Below are positions 607 to 47,721 of a stretch of DNA of 64,000 bases, piece by piece (position 1 is the first letter of the stretch; every line of letters starts with the position of its first letter). The notes below the pieces were generated by a model. That model worked only from the letters and a program-made list of their open reading frames with translations. It ran no database searches and had not been told where the DNA came from. The DNA comes from Longimicrobium sp. (GTDB taxonomy: Bacteria > Gemmatimonadota > Gemmatimonadetes > Longimicrobiales > Longimicrobiaceae), in contig NZ_DATIND010000065.1 of assembly GCF_035474595.1 (NCBI RefSeq), positions 1 to 64,000 on the forward strand, given 5' to 3'. Both the position numbers and the translations under genes were made by a program.

Positions 607-3600
607 TCAATCCCCCGCCGTGAGGGCGGGGGAGGCGACGGCGTCCAGCGCCTCGCGGATCTCGCGGGCTACGGCCTGGACCTCGGGGTCCAGGACGAAG
701 GTGGCGTGGATGCCGGGGACGGTGCGGACCTCCAGGCGGCCGCCGACGTACGGCGCCCAGCCGGGGCCCAGTCCCTCCGCCGGCCGCGGGAGGGTGGGCG
801 AGCCCTGCTCGGACTCGACCACCAGCACGTCGCCCTCGTAGAAGGGCGGGCGCCAGCCGTCCAGCGCGCGCTCCAGGGCCGCCCAGACGCGCACCGTACG
901 GCCGATCTGCCGTGCCATCGAAGCGGGGACGGAGGCATCGGTGCGGGCCAGCCACCGCGCCACCGCCGCCTCGCGCTCTTCCGGCGGGAGCGGGCGCAGC
1001 TCGTCCATCAGCCCCGCGGCCGCCGCCGGGTCCACGCCCACCAGGTCGCACGCCATGCGGTGGTACAGCACCACCTCGTCGAACACCGCGGGCTCGTCGA
1101 TGTAGCCGGGGGCCATGGCGTCGAGGATCACGACCAGCGGCGCATCTTCCCCCATCTCCCGGAGCCGCGCGGCCAGCGCGAAGGCGATGGGGCCGCCCGC
1201 CGACCATCCGCCGACCAGGTACGGGCCCGACGGGAAGGCGGCGCGGATGGCGGCGGCGTAGTGGTCCACCATCTCGTCCATGTCGTCGATGGGCGGCAGG
1301 TCGTCGCTGAAGCCGCGGGCCTGGATGCCGTACAGCGGCTGGTCCGGCCCCAGCGCGCGCGCCAGGTCGGCGTAGCGGAAGACGGTGCCGCCGGCCGGGT
1401 GCACCATGAAGAACGGCGGACGCGTCCCCCGCGCGTGCAGCGCCACGAGGGTGGGCGACGGGCCGCCGTCGCCGGCCGCGTCGACCGCCGCGGCGAGCGC
1501 GGCGAGGGTGGGCGAGCGGAAGAGCTCGGCCAGCGGCAGCTCGCGCCCGAAGCGCTCGCGGATGCGCGCCATCAACCGCACCGCCAGCAACGAGTGCCCG
1601 CCCAGCGCGAAGAAGTCGTCCTCCGCGCCCACCCTGGGCACGCCCAGCACCTCGCTCCACAGGTCCGCCATCTCGATCTCGGTGGGCGAGAACGGCTCCA
1701 CGAACCCGTCGCCGTCGGCGGAGGCGGCGGGGTCGGGGAGGGCGGCGCGGTCCACCTTGCCGCCGGGCGCGAGCGGGAGCGCGTCCATCGTCACGACCGC
1801 CGAGGGGACCATGTGGCGCGGGAGGCGGCGGGCCAGCGCGTCGCGCAGCGCATCTCCCGAAATCTCCGCTCCCTCCGCGGCGACGACCCAGGCGACGAGG
1901 CGCGGGTCGCCGCCGGGGCCGGGGCGCGTGGCCACGACCGCCTCGCGGACGGACGATTCGGACAGCAGCGCGGACTCGACCTCGCCGGGCTCGACGCGCT
2001 GGCCGCGGAGCTTGAGCTGGAAGTCCATCCGGCCCAGGAACTCGAGTGCGAAAGTGGACTCATCGCGAGACTCGCTCCGGCTCGCTTCCGACGCCTCGTG
2101 GGCCCTCTCCCTGGCTCGTTCCTCGCCTGTCCCTCTCCCAAAACTGCCTGGGAGAGGGACGGGGTCGGCGCGGCCTGCATCCGGGGGCGTGAGCGTCGGG
2201 CGATCAAGTGTCGGGGAAACGAAAGCCTCACCTCGCGATGAGTTACTTTCGCACTTTCGCACTTTCGCACTCTCGCACCATCTCACCCGGTCGCCCGTGC
2301 GGTACATCCGCGCGCCCGGCGTCGGGGCGAACGGGTCGGGGACGAAGCGCTCGGCGGTGAGCGCGGGGCGGCGCCAGTAGCCGCGGGCCACCTGCGCGCC
2401 GCCGACGGCCAGCTCGCCGGGGACGCCGAGCGGGGACGGGGCGCCGCGCGGGTCGAGCACGTACGCGCGCACGTTGGGTGCGGGCGGGCCGATGGGGATG
2501 ACGTCGGCCGCCGTGTCGACGAATTGCGCCGTCGCGGTGATGGTGGTCTCCGTCGGACCGTACGCGTTCACCAGCCGCGCGTGCGGGAGGATCTCGGCGG
2601 CGCGGCGGGCGAGCGCGGGCGGCAGCGCCTCGCCGCCGCAGAAGACCAGGCGGAGCGCGCCGCAACCCGCCATCGCCGGCTCGTCGAGCAGCGCGGCGAG
2701 GAGGGTGGGGACGACGTCGATCACCGTCGCCCCGCGCTCGGCGATCTCGCGGGCGAGCGCGGCGGGGTCGGCGTGCGCGCCCGGGGGGGCGACGACGAGC
2801 GCGGCGCCCGCGGCGAGCGCGAGCCAGATCTCGCTTACCGCGGGGTCGAACGCGGAGGGCGTGCGGTGGAGGACGCGGTCCGCGGTGGTGACGGCGAACT
2901 GCGCGCCCGCGGAGTCCGCGTAGCACGACAGCGCGGCGTGGGGGACGGCGACCCCCTTGGGCTTTCCGGTCGATCCCGACGTGTAGATGACGTACGCGAG
3001 CGATTCGGGGGCGATCTCCATCTCCATCGCCGTGGAATCGAAATCTTCCAGCGCGCCGGGGGTGTCGAGCGCGAGGGCGTCGATGCCGGACGGAAGGCGA
3101 TCCATCCACCGCTCCTGCGTGAGAATGAGCCGCGCGCCGGAATCCTCCAGCATCCACGCGATGCGCTCGGCGGGGAATTCGGGGTCGATGGGGACGAGGA
3201 AGGCGCCGGCCTTCAGCGTGGCCACGAAGGCGAGGACGCTTTCGAGCGAGCGCTCCATCACCATCGCCACCGATGTTTCCGGGCCGATGCCGCGCGCGCG
3301 GAGGAGGCGCGCGGCGCGGCTGGTGAGCCGGTCCAGCACGGCGTACGTCAGCGTGCGCCCCTGCAGGTCGATCGCGACGGCCTCCGGCGTTTCCCGCGCG
3401 CGCTCGGCGAAGCGGTGGGCGACGGTGCGCGTGGCGTCGAACGGCGTGGCGGGGCCGGCGGCGAGGCGAAGCATCTCCTCGCGCTCGCCGTCACCCAGCA
3501 GCGGCAGGGCGGAGACGGGGGCGGACGGATCGCGGAGCGCGGCCGCGAGCAGAGTGGCGAAGTGCGCGGCGAAGCGCTCGGCCGTTTCCGCGCGGAATAG

Positions 3601-6600
3601 GTCGGTGGCGTAGTCGAGCGTGCCGTACAGGCCGCCGCCGGTGGCGGCCTCGAGCATCAGCGTGAGGTCCACGTGCGCGGCGCCCGCCTCGCGGGGGATG
3701 CTGGAGACTTCCAGCCCGTGCAGCTCGGCGTGGCCCGTGGGCGCGTTCTGCAGGACGAACATCGCCTGGAAGACGGGCGCGTGCCCCAGGCTGCGCTCTG
3801 GGTGCAGCTCCTCCACCAGCCGCTCGAAGGGGAGCTCCTGGTGGGCGTACGCGCCCAGCGTGGTCTCGCGCACGCGGCCCAGCAGCTCGCGGAATGCCGG
3901 GTCGCCGCCCAGATCGCCGCGCAGGGCGAGGGTGTTGACGAAGAGCCCCATCAGCCCCTCGGTCTCGCGGCGGGTGCGCCCGGCGACCGGGGTGCCGACC
4001 ACCACGTCGTCCTGCCCGGACCAGCGCGCGAGCACGGCCTGGTACGCGGCCAGCAGCACCATGAAGGGCGTGGCGCCCTCGGCCCGCGCCAGCGCGTGCA
4101 CCGCGTCGGCCGTTTCCGGCGTGAGCGCGAAGACGTGCTGCGCGCCGCGGTAGCTCTGCAGCGCGGGGCGGGGATGGTCCGCCGGCAGCTGCAGGAGCGC
4201 CGGGGCACCGGTCAGCCGCTCGCGCCACCACGCCACCTGCCGCTCCAGCACCTCGCCCGCCAGCCAGCGCCGCTGCCACACCGCGTGGTCGGCGTAGCGC
4301 ACCGGCAGCTCGGCCAGCGGCGACGGCCGCCCCTGGGCGAAGGCCCTGTAGACCGCCGCCATCTCGCGGAAGAAGATCCCCTGCGACCAGCCGTCGCTGG
4401 CGGCGTGGTGCGTGAGCGTGAGCAGCGCGTGGTCGCCGTCGCCCAGGCGCAGCAGGAGCGCGCGGAAGAGCGTCTCGCGGGCCAGGTCGAACGGCTGCCC
4501 GGTGAACTCCGCCACGCGCCGGTCCAGCGCCGCCGCGATGTCGTCTTCGCCCGACAGATCCTCGGACGGGAGATGGAAATCCGCATCCAGCACGTGCTGC
4601 ACCGGGTGCCCGTCGCGCTCGGCGAAGACGGTGCGCAGCGGCTCGTGGCGGCGGACGACCTCGGCGAGCGCGCGGGCCAGCGCATCGGCGTCCAGCGCGC
4701 CGCGGAGCCGCATCGCCACGCTCATGTTGTAGGTGGTGGCGCCGGGCTCCAGCCGGTCCAGGAACCACATCCGCTCCTGCGCGAACGAGAGCGGGAAGTC
4801 GTTCCCCTCCCCATGCTCCACCGGCGGGACGTCGGGCGCGTCGCCGTCGCGCATCCGCGATTCCACCGCCGTCGCCATCGCGGCCAGTCTGGGAGATTCG
4901 AAGATGGCGCGCAGCGGAAGCTCCACGCGCAGCCGGTCGCGGACGCGGGAGACGACGAGCGTGGCGAGCAGCGAGTGCCCGCCGAGCGCGAAGAAGTCGT
5001 CGCCGGCGCCGATGCGGTCGCGGTGCAGGACCTCGCTCCAGATCCCCGCCAGCACCTCCTCGACCTGCGTGCGCGGGGCGACGAAGCGCGCGGCCTCGGC
5101 GTCGGGATCGGGGAGCGCCTTGCGATCGACCTTCCCGCTCGCGGTCAGCGGGAGCGCGGGCATCTCCACGAACGCGGCGGGAACCATGTGCTGCGGCAGC
5201 CGCCGCCCCAGCGCGTCCCTCAGCGCCTCCGCGTCGATCCTGCGTCCTTCCGCCGCGACCACCCAGGCGACGAGGCGCGGATCGCCCGTAGGACCCGGAC
5301 GCACGGCCACCACGGCCTCGCGCACGGCGGGCTCGGTGGTGAGCGCGGCCTCAATCTCGCCCGGCTCGATGCGCAGCCCGCGGAGCTTCACCTGGAAGTC
5401 CAGGCGGCCCAGGTACTCGAGAACCGCAGTGCGTGAGTGCGTGAGTGCGTGAGTGCGTCGGGATTCGCGCGGATCCAGCGCACTTCCGCACTCCCGCACT
5501 TCCGCACTTCTCCACCGCGCCCGGTCTCCCGTGCGATACATGCGCGCGCCGGGAGTGCGCGAGAACGGGTCGGGGACGAAGCGCTCGGCGGTGAGCGACG
5601 GGCGGCCGCGATAGCCGCGCGCCACCTGCACCCCCGCGATGCACAGCTCGCCGGGGACGCCCACAGGCGCCAGGTTGCCCGCCGCGTCGAGGACGTGGAT
5701 GCGGGTGTTGGCGATGGGGCGGCCGATGGGGACGGAGCCGCCCTCGCCCGGCGCGCAGGGGTGCCAGGTGACGTCGACCGCGGCCTCGGTGGGGCCATAC
5801 AGGTTGTGCAGCTCCACGCCCGGGAGCCGCGCGAAGAAGCGGTCGCGCAGGTCGGCGGGAAGCGCCTCGCCGCTGCTCATCACGCGGCGGAGCGTCGTGC
5901 AGCTCGCCGCCGATGCATCGTCGACCCAGAGCTGCAGCATGGAGGGGACGAAGTGCAGCGTCGTCACCCCCTCGCGGCGGATGGCGTCGCTGAGGAGGCG
6001 CGGCTCGCGGTGGGCGCCCGGCGCGGCCACGGCCAGGCGCGCGCCCGCCATCAGCGGCCAGAAGAACTCCCACACCGAGACGTCGAAGCCGAACGGCGTC
6101 TTCTGCAGCACCACGTCTCTCTCGTCCAGCCCGAACGTCTCCTGCATCCACAGCACGCGGTTCACCACGCCGCGGTGCGCGTTCCCCGCGCCTTTCGGCT
6201 TGCCGGTCGAGCCGGAGGTGTAGATGACGTACGCCAGCGCGCCGGGATCCGCATCGACATCCACGGGAGATGAGGGGAAGGCGTCCAGCACGCCCGCGTC
6301 GTCCAGCGCGACCGTCGCCGCGGACGCGGGGAGATTCGCCGTCCACCGCCGTTGCGTGAGGACGAGGCGGGCGGCGCTGTCCTCCAGCATCCACGCCACG
6401 CGCTCGGCCGGGTGCTCGGGCTCCACGGGGATGTAGAAGGCGCCCGCCTTCAGCACGCCGTAGAGGGCGACCACCATCTCCAGCGAGCGCTCCATCACCA
6501 CCGCGACGGGCGTCTCCACGCCGATGCCGCGGGCGCGGAGAAGGTGCGCGAGCTGGTTGGCGCGGCCATCCATCTCCGCGTAGGTCAGCGAATCTCCCTC

Positions 6601-9600
6601 GAACGTCACCGCGACCGCGTCCGGGGTGCGCGTGGCCTGCGCCTCGAACATCCCGTGCAGCGTCAGCCCCGGCGCGCGGTCGACGGCCGGGCCGGCGGAG
6701 AGGCGGAGGAGCGAGGCGCGCTCCTCGGGGCGCAGCAGCGGGAGCGCGGAGAGGCGCGTCTCCGGCCTCGCCAGCGCGGCGTCGAGCAGGGTGCCGAGCT
6801 GGCGGACGAGGCGCTCCACCGTCTCCACGTCGAACAGGTCGGTGGCGAACTCGGCCATCCCCTCCACGCCCTCGCCGTGCGGGAAGAGCGCGAGGGAGAG
6901 GTCGAACTTGGCGGCCTGCATCTCCCGCATCACCATCGACACATCCAGCCCGCCGAAGCCGCTGCCGCCGCCGCCGGGAAGGTTCTGCCACGCGAGCATC
7001 ACCTGGAAGACGGGCCCGTGCCCCAGGCTGCGCTCCGGCGCCAGCTCCTCCACCAGCCGCTCGAACGGCAGCGCGGGGTGCTCGAAGGCGCCGAACGCAG
7101 CCTCGCGGGTGCGGCCCAGCAGCTCGCGGAAGGCGGGGTCGCCCGACAGGTCCGCGCGCAGCGCCAGCGTGTTGGCGAAGAAGCCGACCAGCGGCTCCAC
7201 CTCCACCGTCGCGCGCCCGGCGATGGGGGTGCCGACGACCACGTCGGTCTGCCCGGACCAGCGCGCGAGGACGGCGTCGAAGGCGGCGAGGACGATCATG
7301 AACGGCGTCACCGCCTCGCGGCGGGCGACGGAGTCGATGCGCGCCGCCATGCCGGCGGGAAGGGAGAACTGGATGGAGCCGCCGCGGTAGCTCTGCACCG
7401 GCGGGCGCGGCCGGTCGGTCGGCAGCTCCAGCAGCGCGGGCGCGCCGCCGAGCGTCCGCTTCCACCAGCCGACCTCGCGGTCCAGCGCGTCGCCGGACAG
7501 GCGCTCGCGCTCGCGGGCGGCGTGCTCGCCGTACTGCGTGGGGAGCGGCGGGAGCGGCGACGGCTTTCCGGCCGCGAACGCCTCGTACAGCGCCGCCATC
7601 TCGCCGACCAGCACGCCGGTGGACCAGCCGTCGCTGACCGCGTGGTGCACCTGCCACATCAGCGTGTGGTCCTCGGCCCCCGCGCGCACCAGCCACGCGC
7701 GGAAGAGCGGCCCGCGCGCCAGGTCCATCGGCCGCGCGCCCTCTTCGCCCAGCAGCTCCGCCAGCGCCGCGTCGTCCGCGCCGGGAAGGTCGACGATGGG
7801 GAGATGGAGATCGGCCGGCGGCGACACGACCTGCACCGGCTCGTCGCCGTGCGTGTCGATGCGGGTGCGCAGCGTCTCGTGGCGGCGGACGACCTCGCCC
7901 ACCGCGCGCTCCAGCGCGGGGACGTCGAGCGCGCCGCGGAGGCGCACGCCGCCGGCCAGGTTGTACGCCGGGTTGCCGGGCTCCAGCTGGTCCAGCAGCC
8001 AGAGGCGCTGCTGGGCGAAGGTGACCGGGTAGATTTTCTCGGCTTCGCCCGAAGTGCGGGAGTGCGGAAGTGCGTGAGTGCGTGAGTGCGCTTCCTCGCG
8101 CTTCGGCTTGCGCGCGTCGATGTCCGCGGCCAGCGCGGCGACGGTGGGGTGCTCGAAGAGCGCGCGGAGCGGGAGGTCCACCTCGAAGGCGGCGCGGACG
8201 CGCGCGGCCAGGCGCGTGGCCAGCAGCGAGTGGCCGCCCAGGTGGAAGAAGTTGTCCTCGGCGCCCACCTGCTCCGCGTCCAGCAGTTCGGCCCAGATGG
8301 CCGCCAGCGCGCGCTCCGTCTCCGTGCGCGGGGCGACGTACGTCTCGGCCGCGAGCTCCGGGTCGGGGAGCGCGGCGCGGTCCAGCTTGCCGTTGGGCGT
8401 CAGCGGGAGCGCGGGGATGAAGACGAAGGCGGCGGGGACCATCCACTCCGGCACCGACGCGGCCAGGTAGGCGCGGAGCACGGAGGTGTCCAGCCCGTTG
8501 TCCGTTTTGTCCCGCGAGACGATCCACGCCACCAGGCGGCGCGCGTCTCCCTCGCCGCGGGCCAGGACGGCGGCGTCGGCGACGGCGGGATGGGCGCGGA
8601 GCACCGCCTCGATCTCTCCCGGCTCGATGCGGAAGCCGCGCACCTTCACCTGGCGGTCGGCGCGCCCGGCGATCTCCACCACGCCGTCGGCGCGGTATCG
8701 GCCCAGATCGCCCGTGCGGTACATGCGGTCCGCCGCGTCGCCGGTCCAGGGGTTGGCGGCGAACCGGTCCCCCGTCATCTCCTCGTCGCCCAGGTAGCCC
8801 AGGGCGATGTGCGGGCTGCGCATCCAGATCTCGCCCACCTCGCCCACGCCGGCCAGCGCGCCCGCCGGGTTGCGGACGACGAGCTGCACGTCCGGGAGCC
8901 CGATCCCGGCGGGGACCGTCTCCTTGGGCAGGAGCGAGGCGGGTCGGGGGACGGGGAAGAAGGAGACGGCGCGCTGCGTCTCCGTCGACCCGTAGTAGTT
9001 GATGACCTCCAGCCCCGGCGCCAGCGCGTGGAGACGGGCGACGTCGGTGCGCGTGAGCACGTCGCCCACGAAGAAGGCGCGGCGGAGGGTGGAGATGGGC
9101 TCGGCGGCATCGGCGGAGCCCAGCAGCTGCCCCATCGCCGGCGTCAGGTGGGCGATGGTGATCCCGGCCTCGCGCATCCACGCGGCGAGATATCCCGGCT
9201 CGCCGACGGATTCCGGGACGGGGGCGACGACGGAGGCGCCGAGCTGCAGCGGGGTGAAGACGTCGCGGTGCAGCGGGTCGTGCGCCAGACCGCTCAGCAT
9301 GGAGAAGCGGTCGGCGGCGCCCAGGCCGAAGGTCTCCGCCAGCCACGGGGTGAAGTGCGTGAGCGAGCCGTGGCGCCCCATCACGGCCTTGGGCTCGCCC
9401 GTCGTTCCGGACGTGAAGGAGAGGTAGGCGAGCGAATCGGGCCCGATCTCCACCTGTGGCGCCTCGGCGGGGACGCCGAAGAGCCCGTCGCGCTCGGCCT
9501 TTTCGCCCAGCGTGATGGCGCGGCGCACGGTGTCGTCCAGCGCGTCGGCCACGGCGTCGGGGACGGGGCCGGCGGCGGCCACGCGCAGAAAAGCCTTCGG

Positions 9601-12600
9601 CGCGGCGGCGCGGCAGTACGCGGCCAGACGGGCCGGCGGGTACGCGGGGTCCAGCACCAGGAAGGCGGCGCCGGTCTTCAGCGTGGCGACGAGCGCGCGG
9701 ACCAGCGCGGCGGAGCGGTGGCCCCAGATGGCGACCACATCCCCCGGCGCGACGCCGGACTCGGCGAGCGCGCGGGCGATGCGGCTGGTGGCCTTGTCCA
9801 GCTCGGCATACGTCCACCGCTCGCGCGGGTCGGCGGCGGCGAGCGCGTCCGGCGTCGCCTGCGCGTGCGCCGCGAAGAGCGCGGGGACGCTTCCGCGCCA
9901 CTCGGCGGAGAGCGGCGCGGCGGGGTCGGGGAGCGCCGCGCGCGCCTCGTCCGTCAGCAGGGAGAGGGCGGAGACGGGGCGCTCCGGCGCGGCGGCGGCC
10001 TGGCGGAGGACGGAGCCGAGCTGCGCCAGCATCTCCCGCATCCGCTCCGCGGCGAACAGCTCCGCGTCGTAGACCAGGGAGAAGACGAGGGAGCCGTTCC
10101 ACTCCGCCGCGTACAGCGTGAGGTCGAACTTGCTGCCGACCTCCGCCGTGCCCATCGCGGGCTCGACGTCGACGCCGGGGAGGGCCAGCTCGGCGTCGCC
10201 GAAGTTGGCCAGGTTCAGCATCACCTGGAACACCGGCGCGTGCGCCAGGCTGCGCTCGGGGTGCAGGTCCTCCAGGATGCGCTCGAAGGGCACGTCCTGG
10301 TGCGCGTACGCCTCCAGCGTGGTTTCGCGCACGCGGTGCAGGAGCTCGCGGAAGGTGGGATCGCCCCCCAGGTCCGTCCGCAGCGCCAGCGAGTTGAGGA
10401 AGAGGCCGACCAGCGGCTCGGTCTCGCCGCGGTTGCGACCGGCGATGGGGGTGCCGACCACGACGTCGTCCTGCCCCGCCCACCGCGCGAGCACCACGCT
10501 CCACGCGGCCAGCAGCGTCATGAACAGCGTGGCGCCCTCGTGCCGCGTGAGCGCGGCGATCGCGTCGGCCGCATCGGCGGGGATCTCCAGCTGCTCCAGC
10601 CTGCCGCGGTGGCGCTGGACGGCGGGGCGGGGGAGGTCCGTCGGCAGCTCCAGGCGCGGCGGGGCGCCGGCCAGCTTGCGGCGCCAGTAGCCGAGCTGCG
10701 CGTCCAGCACCTCGCCCTGCAGCCACTGGCGCTGCCACGCCGCGAAGTCCGCGTACTGGATGGGGAGCGGCGCCAGCGGCGACGGCTCGCCGCGCCGGAA
10801 GGCGCCGTACAGCGCCGCCAGCTCGCGCGCCAGCACGCCGTACGACCACCCGTCGCTGATCAGGTGATGGAGATTGAGGACGAGGAGATGCTCGTCCTCC
10901 GCCGTCCGCACCAGCACCGCGCGGAAGAGCGGCCCGTTCTCGACGTCGAAGGCGCGCTCGGCCGCGTCGCGGGCGATGATGTCGGCGTCGGCCTCGCTCG
11001 CGAGGGAGCCGGGCTTAACCGGCTCACCAGGGGCACCCGGCTCGACCGCCTCAGCAAGGGCGAATGAATTCGCGGCTACAACGGCCCGAAGTCCGCCTTC
11101 GCGGACTCGCGAGGCACCATCGCCGGCGGGGGAAGATTCATCGCCGCCGATCTTGTCCTTTTTGTCCCACTGGGATGCGGACTCGTGGCGGGAGGGCAAG
11201 GCCGCAGTCCCGAAGGGACTTTGTGCAGTTGTTGCCGCGAATTCATTCGCCCTCGGGCCGCTGAGGTCGTGCACCACGAAGTCCGCCGGCCGGGGCGCGT
11301 GGACGCGCTGGACCGGGGTGCCGTCGACCAGGGGGAAGCTGGTGCGCAGCGACTCGTGGCGGGCGACCAGCTCGTCCAGGGCGCGGCGGAAGGCGTCGGT
11401 GTCCAGCGCGCCGCGGACGCGGAAGGTGAACGGCATGTGGTAGATGGACGAGCCGGGCTCCAGCCGGTCCACGAACCACATCCGCTCCTGCGCGAACGAC
11501 AGCGGCGCATCTCCATCCCGCGCCGTCGCGACGATCGGCGGGGCGTCGGTGCCACCGTCGGCGCGCAGGAGGCGGTCGATCTCGGCGGCCAGCGCGGAGA
11601 GCGTGGGCTGCTCGAAGGTGGCGCGGAGCGGCAGTTCCACCCCGAACGCCTCGCGGACGCGGGACACGACGCGCGTGGCCAGCAGCGAGTGCCCGCCCAG
11701 CGCGAAGAACCCATCGTCCGCCCCCACGCGCTCCACGCCCAGCAGCTCGGCCCAGACGCTGGCCAGCACCTCTTCCGTCTGCGTGCGCGGCGGCACGTAG
11801 TCGCCCGACGCGTCGGTGGCGGGGTCGGGGAGCGCGCGGCGGTCGACCTTGCCGTTGCGGGTGAGCGGGAGCGCGTCCAGCGCCACGAACGCCGAGGGCA
11901 CCATGTACTCCGGCAGGCGCTCCAGCGCGTGCTCGCGCAGCTCGGCGGCGGAGGGCGCATCCCCCTCCGCGACCGTCCAGGCGACGAGGCGCTTCTCGTC
12001 GCCCTCGCCCCGCGCGAGGACCACGGCCTCGCGGACGGCGGGGTGGGCGCGCAGCACCGACTCGATTTCGCCCAGCTCGATGCGGAAGCCGCGGATCTTT
12101 ACCTGGTCGTCGATGCGGCCCAGGTACTGAAGTGCGAAAGTGCGACGAACCGAAGTGCGTGAGTGCGTGAGTGCGAAAGTGGCCTCGTCGCGGGACGAAT
12201 CCCGGTGCGATTCCGCGCCCCCGCGGGCCCGCTCCCTGGCTCGTTCCTCGCCTGTCCCTCCCCCAAAACTGCCTGGGGGAGGGACGGAATCGGCGCGGCC
12301 TGCATCCGGCTGCGCGAGCGTCGGACGCTCGAGTGCCGGTGCGCCGGTGCCGTTCCACTCTCGCACTCTCGCACTTTCGTACTCTCCCACCTCTGTCCAC
12401 CGAGCCCGGTCGCCGCTGCGATACAGACGCGCGCCCGGAATGCCGGAGAACGGGTCGGGGATGAAGCGCTGGGCGGTGAGCGAGGGGCGGCCCAGGTAGC
12501 CGCGCGCCACGCCGGCGCCGCCGACGTGCATCTCGCCGGGGACGCCCAGGGGGACGGGCTCGCCGCGCGGGTCGAGGACGTGGACGGAGAGGTCGGGGAT

Positions 12601-31814: not shown

Positions 31815-32285
31815 GTAGATCCGTCTATCTCCAGATCGGGGCTGCGATGAGCCCGTGCGTCTACAGAATTCGGTGCTGTTGCTCGGTTACGTTCGTGCTT
31901 TGGGGCTGCGCCCTGCCCGCCCGGCTAGCCCCCTCCGCCCGCTCCGCGGGGGAGGGGGAGAACTCAGCGTGGGGCTGGCGGTGGAGCGTTTCCACGGCCT
32001 CGCGCCCTCTCCGGCCGGCTCAGGCCGTCCACCTCTCCCGTACCGGGAGAGGTAGCTGGATGGCATCCGCGCTGAAAATCTCCATCCTGCCCGCCCGGCG
32101 GTCCTCACTCCTCACTACCAGGCCTCCGAGCCGCCGCGATGCTGGCCTCGGGCCTCGCATCACCACCGCCGACGCGCGCTCCACACGCCGCGCGCCGCTT
32201 TCGACGTTACCCCCTCCCGTTATCGGGACGGGGTACGCGGCCTAAGCCGCGGGGGGGAGGGCTCCGCGGGGACGCGGAGTCGCAC
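31815..32285 (-). repeat. Intergenic repeat block R3 between PKS and NRPS genes
   Basis: This 471-bp spacer has no gene. The palindrome ACCTCTCCCG-TAC-CGGGAGAGGT lies at 32031-32053 and the TACCCCCTCCCG/CGGGACGGGGTA stem at 32208-32235. It is almost identical to R2 over about 260 bp. In place of the AAAACTG core there is a CCCGCTCCGCGGGGGAGG variant near 31935-31955. Confidence 0.8.
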
Positions 32286-35200: not shown

Positions 35201-38200
35201 GCTCATCGGGCGAGCGGCGAACCAGCCGCGCCCGCATCAGCGGCCCGCGCTCCAGGTCGAACGGCGCCGCCGCCTCCGCGCGGGTGATGCGCTCCATCTC
35301 CGCATCCCCATTCCCCATAAACGCGGTCAGGTCATGGAGATGCAGGTCCACGGGCGACGCCGGCGCCACCACCTGCACCGGTCCTCCCTGTCCCCCGTCC
35401 CCTGTCCCCTGTCCCCTGAAGCTCGTCCGCAGCGACTCGTGCCGCGCGACCAGCCCGTCCAGCGCCGCCCGGAGCGCATCGGCGTCAAGCTCGCCGCGGA
35501 GGGTGAGGACGATGGGGATGTTGTACGCCGCGCCGGCCGCGCCCATCCGCTCCACGAACCAGAAGCGCTGCTGCGCGAACGACAGCGGCGACCCGGCCCC
35601 GCGCTCCACGGGAACGAGCGGGGGGAGATGGAGATGCGTTCCGCGCCGCGCCTCGGCCGCGCGCGCCGCCAGCCCGGCCACGGTCGGCGCCTCGAACAGC
35701 GCCCGCAGCGGCAGCTCGATGCCGAAGGCGCGGCGGATGCGCGCGATCACCTGCGTGGCCGCGAGCGAGTGGCCGCCCAGCGCGAAGAAGTCGTCGTGCG
35801 CGCCGGGACGCGTGTGCAGCACCGCCTCCCACGCATCGGCCACCAGCTCCTCGGCGGGCGTGCGCGGGGCGACGCGCGCCTCCTCCTCCGGCGCGGCGTC
35901 GGGTTCGGGGAGCGAGCGGCGGTCCACCTTGCCGCTGGGGGTGAGCGGGAGCGCGTCCATCAAGCGCCACGCGCGCGGCACCATGTGCTCGGGCAGCCGC
36001 GCCGCCACGTGCGCCCGCAGCTCGGGGAGCGACGGAGAAGCGCCCGCCGCGGGGACGACGTACGCCGCCAGCCGCCGCTCCGCGCCGTCGCCGCGGGCGG
36101 TGACGGCCGCCTGCACGACCGCGGGGTGCTCGGTCAGCACCGCCTCGACCTCGCCCGGCTCCACGCGGAACCCGCGGATCTTCAGCTGGAAGTCCGTGCG
36201 GCCGACGTACTCGAGCGCGAGTGACGGTGCGAAAGTGCGAGAGTGCGAGAGTGCGAAAGTGGACTCATCGCGAGACGAATCCGGACGCGCTTCGGCACCT
36301 CCCGCGGCCCTCTCCCTGGCTCGTTCCTCGCCTGTCCCTCCCCCAAAACTGCCTGGGGGAGGGACGGGGTTCGCGGGGCCTGCGACCGGCGGCGCGAGCG
36401 TCGGATGCGGGAGTGCCGGGTTTTCACTTTCGCACATCCACCGAACGCGGTCGCCGGTGCGATACAATCTGCTCCCCGGCGCTCCGAACGGGTCGGGGAC
36501 GAACTTCTCCGCCGTCAGCGCCGGGCGGGCCAGGTAGCCGCGCGCCAGGTTGGCGCCACCCGCGAACAGCTCGCCGGGGACGCCGAGGGGGGCGGGCTGC
36601 ATCACCGCGTCCAGCACGTACAGGCGCGTGTTGGCCACCGGCGCGCCGATCGGCGGCAGCGCGGGCCACGCCTCCGGGTCGCCGTCCACCATGTGCGCGG
36701 AGATGACGTGCGTCTCGCTGGGGCCGTAGTGGTTGTCGAGCGTCGCCTGCGGGTTCGCGCGGAAGAAGGCGCGCAGCTGCGGCGTGGAGCGCAGCGCCTC
36801 GCCCGCGGTGATGATCTCGCGCAGGTCGGGGAGACGTGCATCGCCCGCGTCCGCCGCCTCGGCAACGTTCTGCAGCGCGGCGAAGGGGAGGAACAGCCGC
36901 TCGATGCGGTGCTCGCGCAGATATGCGGTCAGTGCCTCGGCATCCCGCCGCGTGTCGTCGTCGATCAGCACCAGCGCGCCACCGCTGGCCCAGGTGGAGA
37001 AGATCTCCTGGAACGAGACGTCGAACGACAGCGACGCGAACTGCAGCGTCCGCGCGGGCGCCGCATCCCCGAACCGCTCCGCCTGCCAGCGGACGACGTT
37101 GGCCAGCGCGCGGTGCGGGAGCGCGGCGCCCTTCGGCCGGCCCGTGGACCCCGACGTGTACAGCACGTACAGCAGGTTGTCGGGATGGAGATGGACCCGC
37201 GGTGCGTCCGTCGGCTCCGCCGCGAGGTCCTCCGCATCCACGCGCACCACCGCCGCGTCCGTCGCGGGGAGACGGGCGGCGACGGGGGAGGTCGTCAGCA
37301 CGACGGCGGCGCGGCTGTCGCCCAGCATGTAGGCGATGCGCTCGGTGGGGTAGTTGGGGTCGACGGCCACGTAGCCCGCCCCCGCCTTCAGCACCGCGAG
37401 CACGGCGACCGTCATCTCCACCGACCGCTCCATCGCCACCGCCACCCGCGCGTCCGGCCGCACGCCCAGCCGGACGAGCCGGTGCGCGAGGCGGTTGGCG
37501 CGTGCCTCCAGCTCCGCGTAGGTCACGCGCTCGCCCGCGAACTCCACGGCGAGCGCGTCCGGCGTCCGCGCCGCCTGCGCGCTCACCAGGTCGTGGACGA
37601 GCGCGGCGTCCCATCCCCGCTCCGTGCGGTTGACGGCGTCCGTCACCGCCGCGCGCTCGTCCGCGTCCAGCAGCGGGAGCGTGGCGACGGGCGCGTCCGG
37701 GTCCGCCGCGGCGGCGCGGACGACGGCGTCCAGGTGCCGCATCATCCGCGCGATGGTGGATTCGTCCCAGAGCGCGGTGGCGAGCTCGGCCTGGCCGGTG
37801 AACGAGCCGTCGGCGCCTTGCGCCAGCATCACCGTCAGGTCGTAGCGCGAGGTGCCGTGCGCGATCTCCACCTCGCCGGCGGTGACGCCCTGCAGCGCCA
37901 GCCCGGCGTGGCCGCCGTGCTGCAGCGCGAGCATCACCTGGAAGAGCGGGGTGTGGCTCAGGCTGCGCTCGGCGCGCACCTCGTCCACCATCCGCTCGAA
38001 GGGCAGGTCCTGGTGCGCGAAGGCGTCCAGCGTGGTCTGGCGCACGCGCCGCAGCAGCTCGCGGAACGCCGGGCGCCCGGAGAGGTCCGCGCGGACGGGA
38101 AGGGTGTTGCTGAAGAAGCCGATCAGCGGCTCCAGCTCGGGCCGCGGGCGGCTGAGCACCGGCGTGCCGACCACCAGGTCGTCCTGCCCGCTCCAGCGCT

Positions 38201-41200
38201 GGAGGACCACGGAGAACGCCGCCAGCAGCACCATGAACGGCGTGGCCCCCTCCGCCGCGGCGAGCGCGCGCACGCCGTCGGCCGCGTCGCCCGAGAGGCG
38301 GAAGGGGAGCAGCGCGCCGCGGAGGTCCTGCACCGGCGGCCGCGGGCGGTCGGACGGCAGCTCCAGCACGGCGGGTGCGCCGGCCAGCCGCTGGCGCCAG
38401 AAGGCGGCCTGCCGCTCCAGCGCCTCGCCGCGCAGCCACCCGCGCTGCCACGCCGCGAAGTCCGCGTACTGCACGGGAAGCGGCGGCAGCGGGCTTGGCT
38501 CGCCGCGGCGGAAGGCGGCGTAGAGGGTGGCCAGCTCGCGCTCCATCACCTCCCACGACCAGGCGTCGCTCACCGCGTGGTGCATCACCAGCGACAGCAC
38601 GTGCTCGCCGTCGGAGATGCGCATCAGCACCGCGCGCAGCACCGGCCCGCGCGCCAGGTCGAACGGCGCCGCGGCCTCGTCCCCCGCCCGCCGCTTCGCC
38701 TCCGCATCCGCCTGGGACTTCGGGAGATGCGACAGATCCAGCATCTCCCACCCGAACGCATCGGCGCCGAGCACGATCTGCTCGATCCCCTCCGTTCCCT
38801 GTCCCCTGTCTCCTGTCCCCTGTTCCCTGAACACCGTGCGCAGCACCTCGTGCCTCCGGACGATCTCCGCGAGCGCACGATGCAGCGCGTTGCCGTCCAG
38901 CGCGCCGGACAGCCGCAGCGCGAGGGCGACGTTGTACGCGGGCGACCGGGGATCGAGCTGCTGCAGGAACCACATCCGCTCCTGCGCGAAGCTCGCGGGG
39001 AGCGGGGCCGCGCGGTCGGCGGGGGGGATGATGCCCGCGGGCGCGCCCTCGCTCTCCACGCGCGCCTCGGCTACGCGGCGGGCCAGGGCGCGCACGGTGG
39101 GCGCCTCGAAGACGGCGCGCAGCGGCAGCTCCACCCCCAGCCGCGCGGCGACACGGGAGACGACGCGGATGCCCAGCAGCGAGTGCCCGCCCAGCGAGAC
39201 GAAGTCGTCCTCCACCCCCACGCGCTCCACGCCCAGCAGCTCGGCCCAGATGGCGGCGAGCGCGGCCTCGTCCGGCGTCTCCGGCGCGGCGAACGCCTCG
39301 GCATCGCCCGCGCCGGGATCGGGAAGGGCGCGGCGGTCCACCTTCCCCGCGGCGCTGAGCGGGATGGCGTCCAGCGCCATGTACGCGGTCGGCAGCATGT
39401 ACTCCGGCACGCGCGTGGCCAGGTGCGCCCGCAGCTCGCCGCCGCTGGGCGCCGCGCCGCGCGGGACGAAGTACGCCGCCAGCCGCAGCACCCCCGCCGC
39501 GTCCGGCCGCGCCGCCACCACGCACTCCGCGACGTTCGGGTGCGTCCGCAGCGCCGCCTCGATCTCCCCCGGCTCCACGCGGAAGCCGCGGACCTTCACC
39601 TGCGCGTCGCCGCGGCCCAGGAACTCGAGAACCCCAGTGCGGAAGTGCGGGAGTGCGGGAGTGCGGGAGTGCGTCAGTGCGTCAGTGCATGCTTCGCGCT
39701 CCGAACCCTCGGCGCCACCGAACCCACGCACTTCCGCACTTCCGCACTCACGCACTTCTTCGAACCATCTCACCCGGTCGCCCGTGCGGTACATCCGCGC
39801 CCCCGGCACGCCGGAGAACGGATCGGGGACGAAGCGCTCCGCCGTGAGCGCGGGGCCGCCGTGGTAGCCGCGCGCCATGATCGCCCCGCCGATGAACAGC
39901 TCGCCGGGGACGCCGGCGGGGACCGGGTGCCGCTCCGCGTCCAGCACCCGCAGCTCGCGCCCCAGCAGGGGCAGGCCGAGGGGGACGCGCGCCGGGTTCG
40001 TGGCCGCGAAGCCGCGCGGGACGGCGAAGGCCGCGGCGACGACCACGATCTCCGTCGGCCCGTAGCCGTTGATCAGCCGCGCCTCGCCGGGGGTCGATTC
40101 CCAGCGCCGCAGCGCGTCGGCGCGCATCTCCTCGCCGCCGGCGATCACCACGCGCAGCTGGCGCTTCACCGCGGCGAGCGCGGTGGTGTCGTGCGTGAGC
40201 TGCGTCCAGTAGCCGGTCGGCAGCAGGGCGATGTTTACGCCCAGCCGCTCCACGCGCTCCGCCAGCTCCGCCGGGCCGGGGACCTCGGGGCCGCGCGGGA
40301 TCACGCATCCTCCCGCCGCGCAGGTGGCGAAGATCTGCTCCACCGAGCCGTCGAAGGTCAGCGAGGCGAAGAGCAGACAGCGGCTGTCCGCGCGGAAGCC
40401 GTACGCCCGCACCGACGCATGCGCGTGCGCCACCGCCCCCGCGTGCGACACGGCCACGCCCTTGGGCATGCCGGTCGATCCGGAGGTGTAGATGATGTAC
40501 GCCAGGTTGTCCGGCCCGGCGGCGAAGCGGGGGAGATCCGCATCCCCATCCCGATCCGCATCTCCATTCCCCGTCTCGAACCACTCGATCGAGTCGATGG
40601 GGATGACGGGGAGGGGCGCCACCCGCGCCGCGTCCGCCGGCCGCGCGACCACGGCGACCGCGCCCGAATCCCCCAGCGCGTGGGCGATGCGCGCGTCCGG
40701 AAAGCCGGGGTCCAGGGGGACGTACGCGCCGCCCGCCTTCAGGATGCCGAGAATCGCCAGGATCCCCTCGGGCGACGACGGGAGCATCATCCCCACCACC
40801 GTCTCCGGGCCGACGCCCAGCGCGCGGAGCCGCCGCGCGAGCACGTCCGTGCGCGCCTCCACCTCCGCGTAGCCCAGCGCGCCGCCGTCCCACGCCAGCG
40901 CGGGGGCATCGGGGCGCGCCGCCGCCCGCGCGGCGATCATCCCGTGCAGCGTCTCCGGCGCGGGAAGCCCCTCGCCGCCGCGCCCCCACTCCGCCACGCG
41001 CGCCATCTCCTCCGCCGAGGCCAGCGGCATCTCCGCCAGCCGCGTGTCGGGCGACGACGCGCCGTGCTCCAGCACCTGCACCACGTGCGCGGCGATGCGC
41101 TCCACCGTTTCGCGCGCGTACACGGCGTCCGCGTACTCGGCGTGGACCGTCACCCCGCCGTCGTCGTCCGGCCAGTTGTCCAGCGCCAGCTCGAAGGGCG

Positions 41201-42461: not shown

Positions 42462-42468
42462 CTTCGGT

Positions 42469-45400
42469 TCAATCTCCCGCCGCCGCGGTGCCGTCCCACG
42501 CTTCCTCGGCCTCCAGGAGCGCGCGGACCTCTTCGTCGGTGAGCATCGACAGCTCGGCCTCCAGCTCCGCGCGCAGCGCCGCCATCTCCGCGTCCAGCAG
42601 CGCGCCCAGCGCGGAGACCGTCGGCGCCGCCAGCACCTGCGGGAGGGACAGGGGAACGCCGAACTCCTCGCGCACCCGCGCCGCCATCTGCGCGGCCAGC
42701 AGCGAGTGCCCGCCGATCTCGAAGAAGCTGGCGTCGGCGGGAACCTGCTCCACGCCCAGCAGCTCGGCCCACGTGGCCGCCAGCAGCCGCTCCGTGGCCG
42801 TTTGCGGCTCGGCGCCCGTGGCGGCCGCGTCGCCGCCCAGCTTCGGCGCGGGAAGGGCGCGGCGGTCCACCTTTCCGTTCGCGGTCAGCGGCAGCGCGTC
42901 CATCACCACCACGGCCACGGGCACCATGTGCTCCGGCACTGCGCCGCGCGCGTGCTCCCGCAGCCGCGCCGGAAGCTCCGCCGCCACGCCTTCGTAGCCG
43001 CGCGCGGGAACCACGTGGGCCACCAGCTGCCGGTCCCCCGGCGCCGCCTCGCGTACCGTCACCACCGCGTCGGCGACGGCGGGATGGCGCGCCAGCAGCG
43101 ATTCCAGCTCGCCGGGCTCGGTGCGGTGGCCGCGGATCTTCACCTGCTGGTCCAGCCGCCCCAGGAACTCCAGCACGCCGTCCGCCCGGCGGCGCACGCG
43201 GTCGCCGGTGCGGTACAATCGCGACCCGTCGGCCGCGAAGGGGTTCGGGAGGTAGCGCTCGGCCGTGAGCGCGGGGGCGTTCAGGTATCCGCGCGCCAGT
43301 CCGTCGCCGCCCACGTACAGCTCGCCGGGCACGCAGGCGGGCACGGGGCGCATCTCCGCGTCCAGCACGTACGCGGTGGAGTTGGAGATGGGCGTGCCGA
43401 TGGGGATGGAGACGAGCTCCGCGTCCCCCGGCTCCAGCGTGTGGCAGGTGGAGTAGGTGGTGTTCTCCGTCGGCCCGTAGCCGTTGATCACGCGCAGCGC
43501 GGGATGCGCCTCCATCACCCGCGCGGCGTGCGGCGCGGACACCACGTCGCCGCCGGACATCAGCTGCCGCAGCGGGGCGAAGGCGGCCAGGTCCTGGTCC
43601 ACCACCTGGTGGAAGAGCGCCGACGTCATCCACGCCGAGGTCACTCCGTGGCGGCGGATGAAGGCGCCTACCGCGGCCGGGTCCGGCGTGCCGGCGGGAT
43701 ACAGCGCCATCCGCGCGCCGTTCAGCAGCGGCCCCCACACCTCGAAGGTGGAGACGTCGAACGACGCGGGGACCATCTGCAGCCACGTCTCCCCCGCGCC
43801 CATCTCCGCGAAGCCGCCGTTCATCACCAGCCGCAGCACCGCGCGGTGCGGCACCACCACGCCCTTCGGCCGCCCCGTCGACCCCGAGGTGTAGATGACG
43901 TACGCCGCGTTCTCCGCATCCACCGCGACGCTTGGCGCATCCGCGCTCTCCGCCGCGATCGCCCCCGCGTCCGCATCCACCCGCACGACCGTCACCCTGT
44001 CGTGCCCGATCCCCCCTGTCCCCTGTCCCCTGTCCCTTGTCCCCTCGATCGTCCCCTCAGCCGTCACCAGCACGCGCGCCCCGCAATCCTCCAGCATCAG
44101 CGCGTTGCGGCTGGCCGGGTACTGCGGGTTCAGCGGGACGTACGCGCCGCCCGCCTTCAGCACGGCGAGGAAGGCGATCACCATCTCCGGCCCGCGCGGC
44201 AGCAGCACGGCGACCGGCTGGTCGACACGCACACCGTGGCGGCGGAGATGGTTCGCCAGGCGGCTCGACCGCTCGTCCAGCGCGCCGTAGGTCATCTCCC
44301 CGCCGTCCCAGCGCAGCGCGACCGCGTCAGCCCTGGATGCGGCGACGGCGGCGAATTCGGCGTGGATGGTCGATTCGCGCGGGTAGGGGCGGGCGGTGCG
44401 GTTCCACGCCTCGGCCTCGGCGCGCGCCCGCGGCTCGTCCACCCGTGCGATGGCGGCGGAGAGCGGGAGATCCGCATCCCCCGCGACCGCCTCCAGCAGG
44501 CGGAGATAGAGGGCGACGATGCGCTCCGCGGTGGCGGGCTCCCACAGCCTGGCGGCGTACTCCAGGTCGCCGTGCAGCGCGCCCCCGCTCTCGCGGATCT
44601 CCAGGAACAGGTCGGCCTTGGTGCTGCCGCTGTACACGTCCTCGGGGCGCGCGCGCACGCCGCCCAGGTCCACGGGGTCCATCTCCACGTTCCCCATGGC
44701 GAACGACACCTGGAAGAACGGCGTCACCCCCGGCACGCGCTGCGGGTTCAGCGCCTCGATCACGCTCTCGAACGGCAGCTCCTGGTTCGCGTAGGCGCCC
44801 AGCGTGGCCTCGCGCACCCGGCCGATCAGCTCGCCGATGGTGGGGTCGCCGCGCAGCTCGGCGCGCAGCGCCACGGTGTTGATGAAGAAGCCGATGAGCC
44901 CCTCCGTCTCCGGCCGCGCGCGCCCCGCCACCGGCGAGCCCACGACGAGATCATCCCCCGCGCCCAGGCGGTGGAGGAGGAGGTCGAAGCCGGCCAGCAG
45001 CACCATGAACGGCGTGGCCGCGTGGCGCCGCGCCGCCTCCCGCAGCCGCGCGGCCAGAGTGGCGGGCACGGTGAAGCGGACGATGCCGCCCTCGTGCGAG
45101 GGCGAGGCGGGGCGCGGGCGGTCGGTGGGGAGATCGAGGACGCCCGGCGCGCCGTCCAGCCGGGCGCGCCAGTAGTCCAGCTGCGCCGCGCGCACCTCGT
45201 CCGTCAGCCGCGCGCGCTGCCACGCCGCGAAGTCCGCGTACTGCAGCGGGAGAGGGGGAAGGGGAGATGGACGCCCGGAGACGATCGCCTCGTACAGCTT
45301 CGACAGCTCGCCGAAGAGGATGCCCAGCGACCACCCGTCCGCCGCGATGTGGTGGACGTTCAGCGCCAGCAGGTGCTCGTCCGGGGCGATGCGCGCCAGC

Positions 45401-47721
45401 CGCCCCCGCAGCATGGGGCCGGCGGCAAGGTCGAACGGCTCCGCGGCGACCGCCTCGGAGACGCGCCGCGCCTCGGCCTCGGCCGCATCCCGCGGCAGCG
45501 CGGAGAAATCGTCGAGCGGGAGATCGAAATCGTCCGCCGGGGGATTGACCACCTGCGCCAGCCCGTCGGCGGTGGTGGCGAACACCGTGCGCAGCGCCTC
45601 GTGCCGGCGAACGATCCCGGCCAGCGCCCGCCGCAGCGCGGAGGCGTCCAGCGCGCCCGAGAGCCGCACGGCCAGGGGGATGTTGTACGCCGCGAACCCG
45701 GCCGGCTCCATCTCGTGCAGCAGCCACAGCCCCTGCTGCTGGAACGACGGCAGCAGCGGCGCGCCGTCGCGCGCGATCGGGGCGAGCGGCGGCTCCCCCG
45801 CCGTCTCCGTCCCCGCCGCGGCGTCGATGCGCTCGGCCAGCGCGGCCGCCGTGCGCGCGTCGAACACCGCGCTCACCGGCAGCTCCACCCCCCAGCGCCG
45901 CCGCACGCGCGACAGCACCAGCATCCCCAGCAGCGAGTGCCCGCCCGCCGCGAAGAAGTCGTCGTCGGGCCCCACCGCGGCGCCCAGCACCTCGCGGAAG
46001 ATCTCCATCACCCCGCGCGCCGTCTCGCCCAGCCCGGCAGGGAGATCGGGGGATTCGGGCGATGCGGACGCGGGCGTGGGGAGCGCGCGCCGGTCGATCT
46101 TCCCGTTCGCGTTCAGCGGCAGGGAGTCGAGGAAGGTGAGCGTGGATGGCACCATGTACGCGGGAAGCCGCTCGCCCAGCCACCCTCGCAGCGCCCCGGC
46201 GTCGCCGTCCGCCGCGTCGTCGCGGAGGACGGCCCATGCGTGCAGCCGCATGGCCCCATCCTCCCCGCGCCGCGCGGCAACGGCGGCCGCGGCCACGTCC
46301 GGGTGCTCGGAGAGCACCGCCTCGACCTCACCCGGCTCCACGCGGAACCCGCCGACCTTCACCTGGTTGTCGATCCGGCCCAGGAACAGAAGTGCGAAAG
46401 TGCGAGAGTGTGAAAGTGCGAAAGTGGGTTCGGCGCGCGACGAACCCGGGTGCGCTTCCGTCCATCTCGCCCGGTCGCCGGTGCGATACATCCGCGCGCC
46501 CGGCGCCTCCGCGAACGGGTCGGGGACAAACTTCTCCGCCGTCAGCGCGGCGCGGCCCAGGTATCCCCGCGCCACGCACACCCCGCCGATGCACACCTCG
46601 CCCTCCGCCGCCTGCGATCCATCCTCGCCGACGACGTAGGCGCGCGCGTTGGCGCGGGCGGAGCCGATCGGCGCGTCGCCCTGCCAGCCGTCCGCGGGGA
46701 GCTCCCAGCTCGTCGCCCAGACGGTAGCCTCGGTCGGGCCGTAGCAGTTCATCCACCGCACGCCGGGGGCGATCTCGCGCCACCGGGCGAGCGCCGCGGC
46801 CTGCGGCTTCTCGCCGCCGGTGACCAGGAGGCGCACGGACTCCGGAACGCGCGCGCCGGACGCGGCCATGTCCGCCACCCACGCGTGCCACAAAGCCGTG
46901 GGGGGATTGAGGATGGAGATCCGCTCGTCGGCCACCCAGCGCCAGAACCCCGGCCCCAGCGCCGGGACCGAGCGCGGGCGGAAAAGGAGCGCCGCGCCCG
47001 CCGCCCACGCGGCCCAGATCGGCTCCACGCTCATGTCGAACCCGACGGACGGCAGCTGCCCCACGCGGTCGCCCGGCGCGAGCCCCCACAGGTTCGTCGT
47101 GACGCGCTGCAGGGAGACGAGCGCGCGGTGCGTGACGCCCACGCCCTTGGGCCGGCCGGTCGATCCCGAGGTGTAGATGACGTACGCGAGGTTGTCCGGG
47201 TCCACCTCCGCTGCCACGAACCCACCCCCCGCCGCGGGATCGATCGCCTCGACGTCGAGGACGGGAAGATGGGTCGGGGGAAGGCGATGCGCGGCATCCC
47301 CGTGCGTCAGCACCGCCGCCGCGCCCGAGTCTTCCAGCACGAAGGCGATGCGCTCCGCCGGGTACTCGGGGTCGATGGGCACGTACGCGCCCCCCGCCTT
47401 CAGCACGCCGATCAGCGCCGCCGCGAAGGCGGGGCCGGGCTCCATCAGCACCACCACGCGCCGCTCCGGGCCCACGCCCAGCGCGCGAAGACGCGCGGCC
47501 ACGGCGCGCGCGGTCCGCTCCACCTGCGCGTACGTCGCCGCGCGCCCGCCGCCGGAGACCGCGGGCGCGTCCGGCGTGGACGCCGCGTGCGCCTCGAACG
47601 GATGGTGCGCGCACGCCCACCCGCGCGTGGCGGAAATCGTCCGCGGCGTGGCCCCTTCGCCGCCCGCGCTCAACACTCGCACCCGGTGGACGGGAACGGC
47701 CGGACCGAATCGTAGCGACAC
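42469..47721 (-). CDS. Loading and first elongation NRPS, A-T-C-A-T (modules 1-2)
   Basis: This 1750-residue protein is the likely first enzyme, because it begins with an A domain and has no N-terminal C domain. A1 (about 40-560) has YTSGSTG near 184, the code DMELVGCVWK (unassigned) and hinge insertion 421-443. T1 is near 592. C (about 650-1100) has VHHIAADG. A2 (about 1115-1640) has the code DVFWMGGTYK, close to Val codes, and keeps a normal ADG loop at the hinge, with no insertion. T2 is near 1670. The tail contains MLTDEEVRALLEAEE, a probable docking motif. A GGGACAG tract (44011-44045) encodes extra residues between A2 and A3 of the second A domain. The start is GTG at 47721 without a strong Shine-Dalgarno. 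In-frame starts within the next 30 codons are also possible. Confidence 0.93.
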   Translation of the reverse strand: MSLRFGPAVPVHRVRVLSAGGEGATPRTISATRGWACAHHPFEAHAASTPDAPAVSGGGRAATYAQVERTARAVAARLRALGVGPERRVVVLMEPGPAFAAALIGVLKAGGAYVPIDPEYPAERIAFVLEDSGAAAVLTHGDAAHRLPPTHLPVLDVEAIDPAAGGGFVAAEVDPDNLAYVIYTSGSTGRPKGVGVTHRALVSLQRVTTNLWGLAPGDRVGQLPSVGFDMSVEPIWAAWAAGAALLFRPRSVPALGPGFWRWVADERISILNPPTALWHAWVADMAASGARVPESVRLLVTGGEKPQAAALARWREIAPGVRWMNCYGPTEATVWATSWELPADGWQGDAPIGSARANARAYVVGEDGSQAAEGEVCIGGVCVARGYLGRAALTAEKFVPDPFAEAPGARMYRTGDRARWTEAHPGSSRAEPTFALSHSRTFALLFLGRIDNQVKVGGFRVEPGEVEAVLSEHPDVAAAAVAARRGEDGAMRLHAWAVLRDDAADGDAGALRGWLGERLPAYMVPSTLTFLDSLPLNANGKIDRRALPTPASASPESPDLPAGLGETARGVMEIFREVLGAAVGPDDDFFAAGGHSLLGMLVLSRVRRRWGVELPVSAVFDARTAAALAERIDAAAGTETAGEPPLAPIARDGAPLLPSFQQQGLWLLHEMEPAGFAAYNIPLAVRLSGALDASALRRALAGIVRRHEALRTVFATTADGLAQVVNPPADDFDLPLDDFSALPRDAAEAEARRVSEAVAAEPFDLAAGPMLRGRLARIAPDEHLLALNVHHIAADGWSLGILFGELSKLYEAIVSGRPSPLPPLPLQYADFAAWQRARLTDEVRAAQLDYWRARLDGAPGVLDLPTDRPRPASPSHEGGIVRFTVPATLAARLREAARRHAATPFMVLLAGFDLLLHRLGAGDDLVVGSPVAGRARPETEGLIGFFINTVALRAELRGDPTIGELIGRVREATLGAYANQELPFESVIEALNPQRVPGVTPFFQVSFAMGNVEMDPVDLGGVRARPEDVYSGSTKADLFLEIRESGGALHGDLEYAARLWEPATAERIVALYLRLLEAVAGDADLPLSAAIARVDEPRARAEAEAWNRTARPYPRESTIHAEFAAVAASRADAVALRWDGGEMTYGALDERSSRLANHLRRHGVRVDQPVAVLLPRGPEMVIAFLAVLKAGGAYVPLNPQYPASRNALMLEDCGARVLVTAEGTIEGTRDRGQGTGGIGHDRVTVVRVDADAGAIAAESADAPSVAVDAENAAYVIYTSGSTGRPKGVVVPHRAVLRLVMNGGFAEMGAGETWLQMVPASFDVSTFEVWGPLLNGARMALYPAGTPDPAAVGAFIRRHGVTSAWMTSALFHQVVDQDLAAFAPLRQLMSGGDVVSAPHAARVMEAHPALRVINGYGPTENTTYSTCHTLEPGDAELVSIPIGTPISNSTAYVLDAEMRPVPACVPGELYVGGDGLARGYLNAPALTAERYLPNPFAADGSRLYRTGDRVRRRADGVLEFLGRLDQQVKIRGHRTEPGELESLLARHPAVADAVVTVREAAPGDRQLVAHVVPARGYEGVAAELPARLREHARGAVPEHMVPVAVVVMDALPLTANGKVDRRALPAPKLGGDAAATGAEPQTATERLLAATWAELLGVEQVPADASFFEIGGHSLLAAQMAARVREEFGVPLSLPQVLAAPTVSALGALLDAEMAALRAELEAELSMLTDEEVRALLEAEEAWDGTAAAGD
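44011..44045 (-). repeat. GGGACAG heptamer tract in module 2 A domain
   Basis: Four CCCCTGT-type units on the + strand encode a GTRDRGQGTGG run in the variable loop between the LVTAEG strand and the next conserved VVRVDADAG segment. The frame is intact. It is the third such tract in the cluster. Confidence 0.75.
46393..46461 (-). repeat. Hinge-loop insertion, module 1 A domain (23 aa, shortest)
   Basis: These 69 in-frame bases lie between YRTGDRARW and LLFLGRID. Octamers AGTGCGAA, AGTGCGAG and AGTGTGAA are present on one arm only. The inverted arm is reduced to a trace, so this copy may be a deletion product. Confidence 0.85.

Follow-up and report, generated by a model that had tools for sequence, protein, structure and literature searches.

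The adenylation (A) domains of a nonribosomal peptide synthetase (NRPS) cluster in Longimicrobium sp. carry long, repeat-derived segments at one and the same loop, which raises the question of what this DNA is, how it came to lie in so many modules and whether the enzyme makes use of it. The window, i.e., the whole 64,000-nucleotide stretch analysed, belongs to contig C65 of the assembly G000 (6.57 Mb, 163 contigs) and carries a large NRPS/PKS cluster on its minus strand, consisting of C-A-T modules and one PKS module and closed by a terminal thioesterase; one of its A domains bears a methyltransferase. A scan for the A8 motif located 12 minus-strand A domains (A8 at 2034, 5409, 8667, 12120, 15546, 20043, 24110, 32954, 36203, 39617, 43161 and 46380). 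The A7–A8 segment, measured from YRTGD through the residue preceding GRxD, was long in 10 of the 12, just as a sequence-only reading of this DNA had claimed when it placed inserts at a single hinge loop. The occupied segments measured 36, 43, 43, 50, 52, 58, 87, 90, 95 and 101 residues; in the two insert-free domains (A8 at 8667 and 43161) the segment has 18 residues, the usual length elsewhere in G000 (8668..8721, YRTGDLGRYRADGVVEIA, and 43162..43215, YRTGDRVRRRADGVLEFL, both minus strand).

The ten occupied loops carry 18, 25, 25, 32, 34, 40, 69, 72, 77 and 83 extra residues. The long inserts reported earlier are real, but the lengths given for them were about five too high because the replaced turn had been counted in. 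The canonical segment reads YRTGDxxRW-xxDG-xLEFL, and in the occupied domains everything between W and LE(F/Y)L is exchanged for the insert, so that the W-xxDG-xLE turn is gone. Catalytic motifs were kept in the occupied domains, and a fold search returned an ordinary A domain. Besides carrying the hinge-loop insert, the domain at 20043 is a classical interrupted A domain, with a methyltransferase domain lodged C-terminally between A8 and A9 (window 18372–20043).

The inserts follow the plan of a dispersed hairpin, (AGTGCGNN)n, a short palindromic core and (CGCACTNN)n, and three types could be read by motif screens and class assignments made with our own scripts. Class A consists of about four AGTGCGNN units, the core CTGGATCCGCGCGAG and about four CGCACTNN units; class B has class A-like arms around different cores, e.g., AACTCATCGCGCGACGAA; in composite inserts, the arms resemble those of class B and enclose a second hairpin repeat, GTCCCTCCCCCAGGCAGTTTTGGGGGAGGGAC, at mid-insert. 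In the window, class A is represented on the minus strand at 5422..5511 (4 + 4 octamers, core CTGGATCCGCGCG; A8 at 5409), 24123..24239 (right arm grown to 7 octamers, +24 bp; A8 at 24110) and 32967..33077 (A8 at 32954). On the same strand, two octamer arms surround the core TCCTCCGCGCACGATGGA at 15559..15648 (A8 at 15546; RNA hairpin z = −11.4) and an unlike core at 39630..39764 (A8 at 39617), and the right arm stands alone at 46393..46461 (A8 at 46380). The four longest loops, again minus-strand, are composites: 2047..2277 (left octamer arm, nested hairpin repeat, short right remnant; A8 at 2034), 12133..12396 (A8 at 12120), 20056..20301 (A8 at 20043, the domain with the methyltransferase) and 36216..36437 (left arm lost; A8 at 36203). 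The inserts had been described as octamer arrays mostly paired with inverted octamers; the octamers and the usual inverted arm were recovered, but essentially one arm is left in the loops at 46380, 2034 and 36203, and the four longest loops are mostly non-octamer, with the unrelated second repeat nested in them. The array motif AGTGCGNNAGTGCG has 54 matches in the window versus 0.04 expected from shuffles, and its clusters all lie inside A7–A8 loops with the single exception of an in-frame array in a T–C linker (8053..8090, minus strand).

The same repeat is frequent in G000 at large (553 + 518 three-unit array matches). According to our own simple codon-bias gene caller, applied to about 1.17 Mb of the 6.57 Mb, 36 of 42 arrays outside NRPS regions (~765 kb, 80% of it coding) were intergenic, five lay at gene edges and one in called coding sequence. 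The intergenic copies have arms identical in kind to those of the NRPS inserts and a CTGGATCC-type core, so the inserts belong to a family whose copies elsewhere lie between genes. Its termini are loosely conserved. The second hairpin repeat, too, is scattered through the genomes of several species of the genus, and it is nested in 13 of the loops; a second-family copy (CCCTCCCCCAG...TTTTGGGGGAGGG) also stands alone and in frame in an Asub loop between A8 and A10 in the sister genome G008 (C65:53175–53259, L131), so a further A-domain loop accepts repeat DNA. Two ideas about the octamer repeat were dropped. One was that it serves as an uptake sequence: AAGTGCGG resembles the Haemophilus uptake signal, but isolated AGTGCG was not enriched (274 occurrences, against 499 as the median of permuted hexamers). 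G000 also has six Y1 transposase genes, one of which (RAYT-like; G000:C46:148725–149063, L201) has an inverted repeat of its own on either side (GCCTCGCAAACTGCGCGAGGC, GACTGAAGTCGC), which forms a third family; mobilisation of the octamer repeat by RAYT/Y1 was set aside, since a different repeat flanks this inspected locus.

The inserts reach well beyond the window, to other loci of G000 and to sister species. Occupied A7–A8 loops numbered 60 in six of the eight species sampled from the genus (G000 and seven sister genomes), always at the same site and not at random positions, with 9 to 84 extra residues. The 59 scored loops comprise 27 in G000, 23 in G008, four in G002, three in G001, one in G007 and one, a short relic, in G009; the 60th, G000 L107:12316, is one that the A8 motif did not catch. 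Occupancy in G000 (27 of 90 A domains) is nearer to unbiased, while the fractions for G002, G007 and part of G008 are biased by the choice of regions that hold arrays. Within the fetched regions, none of the 22 A domains of G004 and none of the three of G006 was occupied, and the array-poor genomes were nearly free of such loops (0/22 in G004, 1/41 in G009). These regions held 77 array clusters, of which the script placed 69 in an A7–A8 loop; two of the remaining eight are the halves of L107:12316. Elsewhere in NRPS coding sequence only two clusters were seen, the T–C linker array of the window and G000:C152:12067–12088 (L106), an in-frame array in the loop that immediately precedes the HHxxxDG motif of a condensation domain. 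Among 395 genomes of the phylum, the strict A7-plus-array pattern occurred in three species of the genus only, with none in the 387 sampled genomes outside it; the octamer array by itself extends to a few further genera of the family. The one named match in the wider search, on a Planctomycetota contig, was discarded as chance, since its surroundings contain no A-domain sequence. At least ~70 condensation domains were counted in several species of the genus, marking an NRPS-rich lineage; G003 and G005 contain octamer arrays and gave no condensation domain match.

This distribution bears on both conditions under which the sequence-only reading would have been refuted: inserts at random positions in related genomes, which is not what was seen, and arrays that are assembly artefacts. 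Repeats are hard to assemble, and the genomes are drafts of 60–910 contigs; yet independent assemblies of six species carry inserts of different sequence at the same site and in frame, which leaves the artefact with a negligible chance.

The reading frame is kept in 58 of the 59 scored loops (p = 8e-27 vs. 1/3), and the peptides of the inserts vary with frame and class. In composite loops, nucleotide diversity was flat over the codon positions (0.175, 0.170 and 0.190), whereas in the 60 codons upstream of the loops the third position was clearly higher (0.27, 0.25 and 0.39). Selection thus keeps the reading frame of the loops but, in the composites, shows no sign of acting on the amino-acid sequence; class A and B loops have a slight third-position excess, which leaves room for a weak protein constraint. 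AlphaFold models of a class A (24110) and a composite (12120) A domain place the insert, predicted to be disordered (pLDDT ~25–42), between two strands, in keeping with the earlier statement that it has no recognisable fold. By alignment to LgrA, the insert sits at the turn and ends 8–11 residues before the hinge Asp.

Such a position could mean that the loop is functional, tuning the hinge or, as an mRNA hairpin, slowing translation at the Acore–Asub boundary and so aiding folding. As RNA, the octamer inserts form very stable predicted hairpins (−47 to −71 kcal/mol, z −5 to −11), and cpEGFP inserted in the hinge regions of ANL enzymes impaired thioesterification and spared adenylation (PMC10590383). 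However, close homologues exist both with and without the insert, the extra length varies over the whole range given above, codon-position diversity in the composites is flat and the same hairpin is common in intergenic copies; we therefore regard a functional loop as quite improbable.

The octamer, whose 8 bp are not a multiple of 3, could also make each loop a contingency locus in which slippage toggles NRPS frames. One A domain, G001:C218:26525, is indeed frameshifted by one octamer: it has three CGCACT units, compared with four in the neighbouring paralogue (93% core identity), and long frames stay open before and after the shift. This domain apparently belongs to the final module of a large NRPS, whose downstream part (A8, T and more) is open in the other frame to 27946. 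Octamer counts do vary among loops, but this is one case in 59, all other scored loops are in frame, and the shift could stem from decay, from misassembly or from phase switching. Contingency loci are accordingly a long shot, and we give equally little credence to octamer loops as hypermutable frame switches by which clone-mates would differ in their active assembly lines and hence peptides. Among hinge timing, translational pausing and phase variation, direct support extends to phase variation alone, from this one frameshift.

The history of the loops differs from that of the domains that carry them. Loop similarity was unrelated to A-core identity (rho 0.04, p 0.14) and showed a rho of 0.24 with a shared contig. 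Twelve composite loops share a mean DNA identity of 85%, while their hosts have 43% core amino-acid identity and are no closer than random pairs; the flanks of these loops are not elevated in identity, and those of similar loops overall are only slightly raised. For each of the 27 scored G000 loops, a loop of another A domain matched better than any non-loop copy (24 by script, the other three best matching L107:12316), and a whole-genome class A query ranked A-domain loops above intergenic copies in both G000 and G008. Mapped on the core tree, occupancy changed at least 40 times, compared with 52 for shuffled labels, suggesting many gains and losses. Both directions can be read at individual loci. 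In a trio of close homologues (cores 91% identical, flanking DNA 94–95% identical to G000), G008 is occupied and G000 and G009 are empty; the turn CTCGCCGATGGCACG is replaced by the insert in G008, and no target duplication was seen in this one clean empty-site comparison. The trio shows the gain of an insert that takes the place of the PDG turn and is not added to it. Conversely, G000:C151:98683 carries KESAVLEFL, a sequence expected after a class A insert is deleted between TGCGG microhomologies, and this loop reads as a microhomology deletion scar.

Were each loop an independent transposase insertion into preferred A7–A8 target codons, the sharpness of the site, the short flanks and the many occupancy changes would all be accounted for. 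A site-specific mobile element nevertheless seems rather unlikely: the common nested architecture of the 13 composite loops needs common descent, loops are nearer to loops than to intergenic copies, the turn is replaced with no target duplication in the trio, and the Y1 transposase locus inspected in G000 has a different flanking repeat. Taken together, loop kinship, independence from the core, the gain in the trio and the deletion scar point to loop-to-loop copying, most likely by short-tract recombination between modules. The barely raised flank identity would make the conversion tracts very short, which is unusual and is the weak point of a recombination mechanism.

A different role for recombination had been proposed, with the repeats as points at which Acore and Asub are exchanged between modules. 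NRPS evolution often involves Acore swaps (PMC8097286), and many of the pairs compared here are discordant between core and sub. The frequency of discordance (at upstream identity ≥0.75) was 0.44 and 0.45 in pairs with one and two inserts vs. 0.49 in empty–empty pairs, a comparison of low power given only 11 occupied–occupied pairs. The data thus do not support the proposal, which we consider highly unlikely.

Of the sequence-only reading's interpretations, the permissive loop is the better one, and we favour it in an extended form: the inserts are probably a tolerated, selfish-type in-frame repeat in a permissive loop, spread from module to module, and not a catalytic domain. A dispersed, otherwise intergenic hairpin repeat would have inserted into the exposed A7–A8 beta-turn and, from a first loop, spread between modules, likely through short-tract recombination between paralogous A domains, whose conserved A7 and A8 flanks would cause the insert to swap out the W-xxDG-xLE turn each time. 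Arms would grow and shrink by octamer slippage, a further repeat may nest inside the octamer insert, copies may be lost through microhomology deletion, and what remains would be translated as a disordered surface loop. We infer that the insert is neutral for the enzyme, tolerance being assumed from the open frames and conserved motifs.

If so, the lineage has performed a natural insertion experiment, replicated many-fold, right next to the hinge on which catalysis by NRPS A domains depends. The loop seems to accept from ~10 to >80 unstructured residues with an open frame, which would be useful for tagging and engineering, and the natural inserts make the question of hinge length directly testable. 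Our literature searches found no report of such repeat inserts in A domains and none of a selfish-type repeat that has colonised the same homologous position in dozens of paralogous modules.

Among known systems, the Rickettsia palindromic elements (RPE) come closest; these palindromes of ~150 bp encode a conserved peptide, lie in frame in many unrelated protein-coding genes, occur outside genes as well and are translated without an evident role (PMC10969869). Like RPE, the Longimicrobium repeat is palindromic, dispersed in many genomic copies (553 + 518 matches; hairpin z −5 to −11) and inserted in frame in genes (58/59 loops). It differs in its octamer arms of variable length, in coding copies confined almost entirely to the NRPS A7–A8 loop and in peptides that change with frame and class. 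MITEs and REP-type repeats are likewise short non-coding inverted repeats between genes with occasional in-frame fusions, as in the QMITEs of Coxiella (PMC5896051); unlike these, the present repeat has octamer-array arms, and it showed no target duplication at the one clean empty site. Its termini are loosely conserved, and the Y1 transposase locus inspected in G000 for a mobilising enzyme is flanked by a different repeat. Interrupted A domains, such as those with the methyltransferase insertion of TioS and the epimerase insertion of PchE, also carry extra sequence near the Acore–Asub boundary, but theirs are folded catalytic domains, whereas here it is repeat DNA without a predicted fold just before the hinge; the window module at 20043 has both kinds of insertion. 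Phase-variable simple-sequence-repeat loci contain, inside a gene, a tandem unit that is not a multiple of 3. The octamer loops share this property and include one frameshifted copy, a difference between paralogous modules, but unlike such loci nearly every copy is in frame. Finally, the cpEGFP insertions in ANL hinge regions (PMC10590383) provide an artificial parallel to the A7–A8 inserts.
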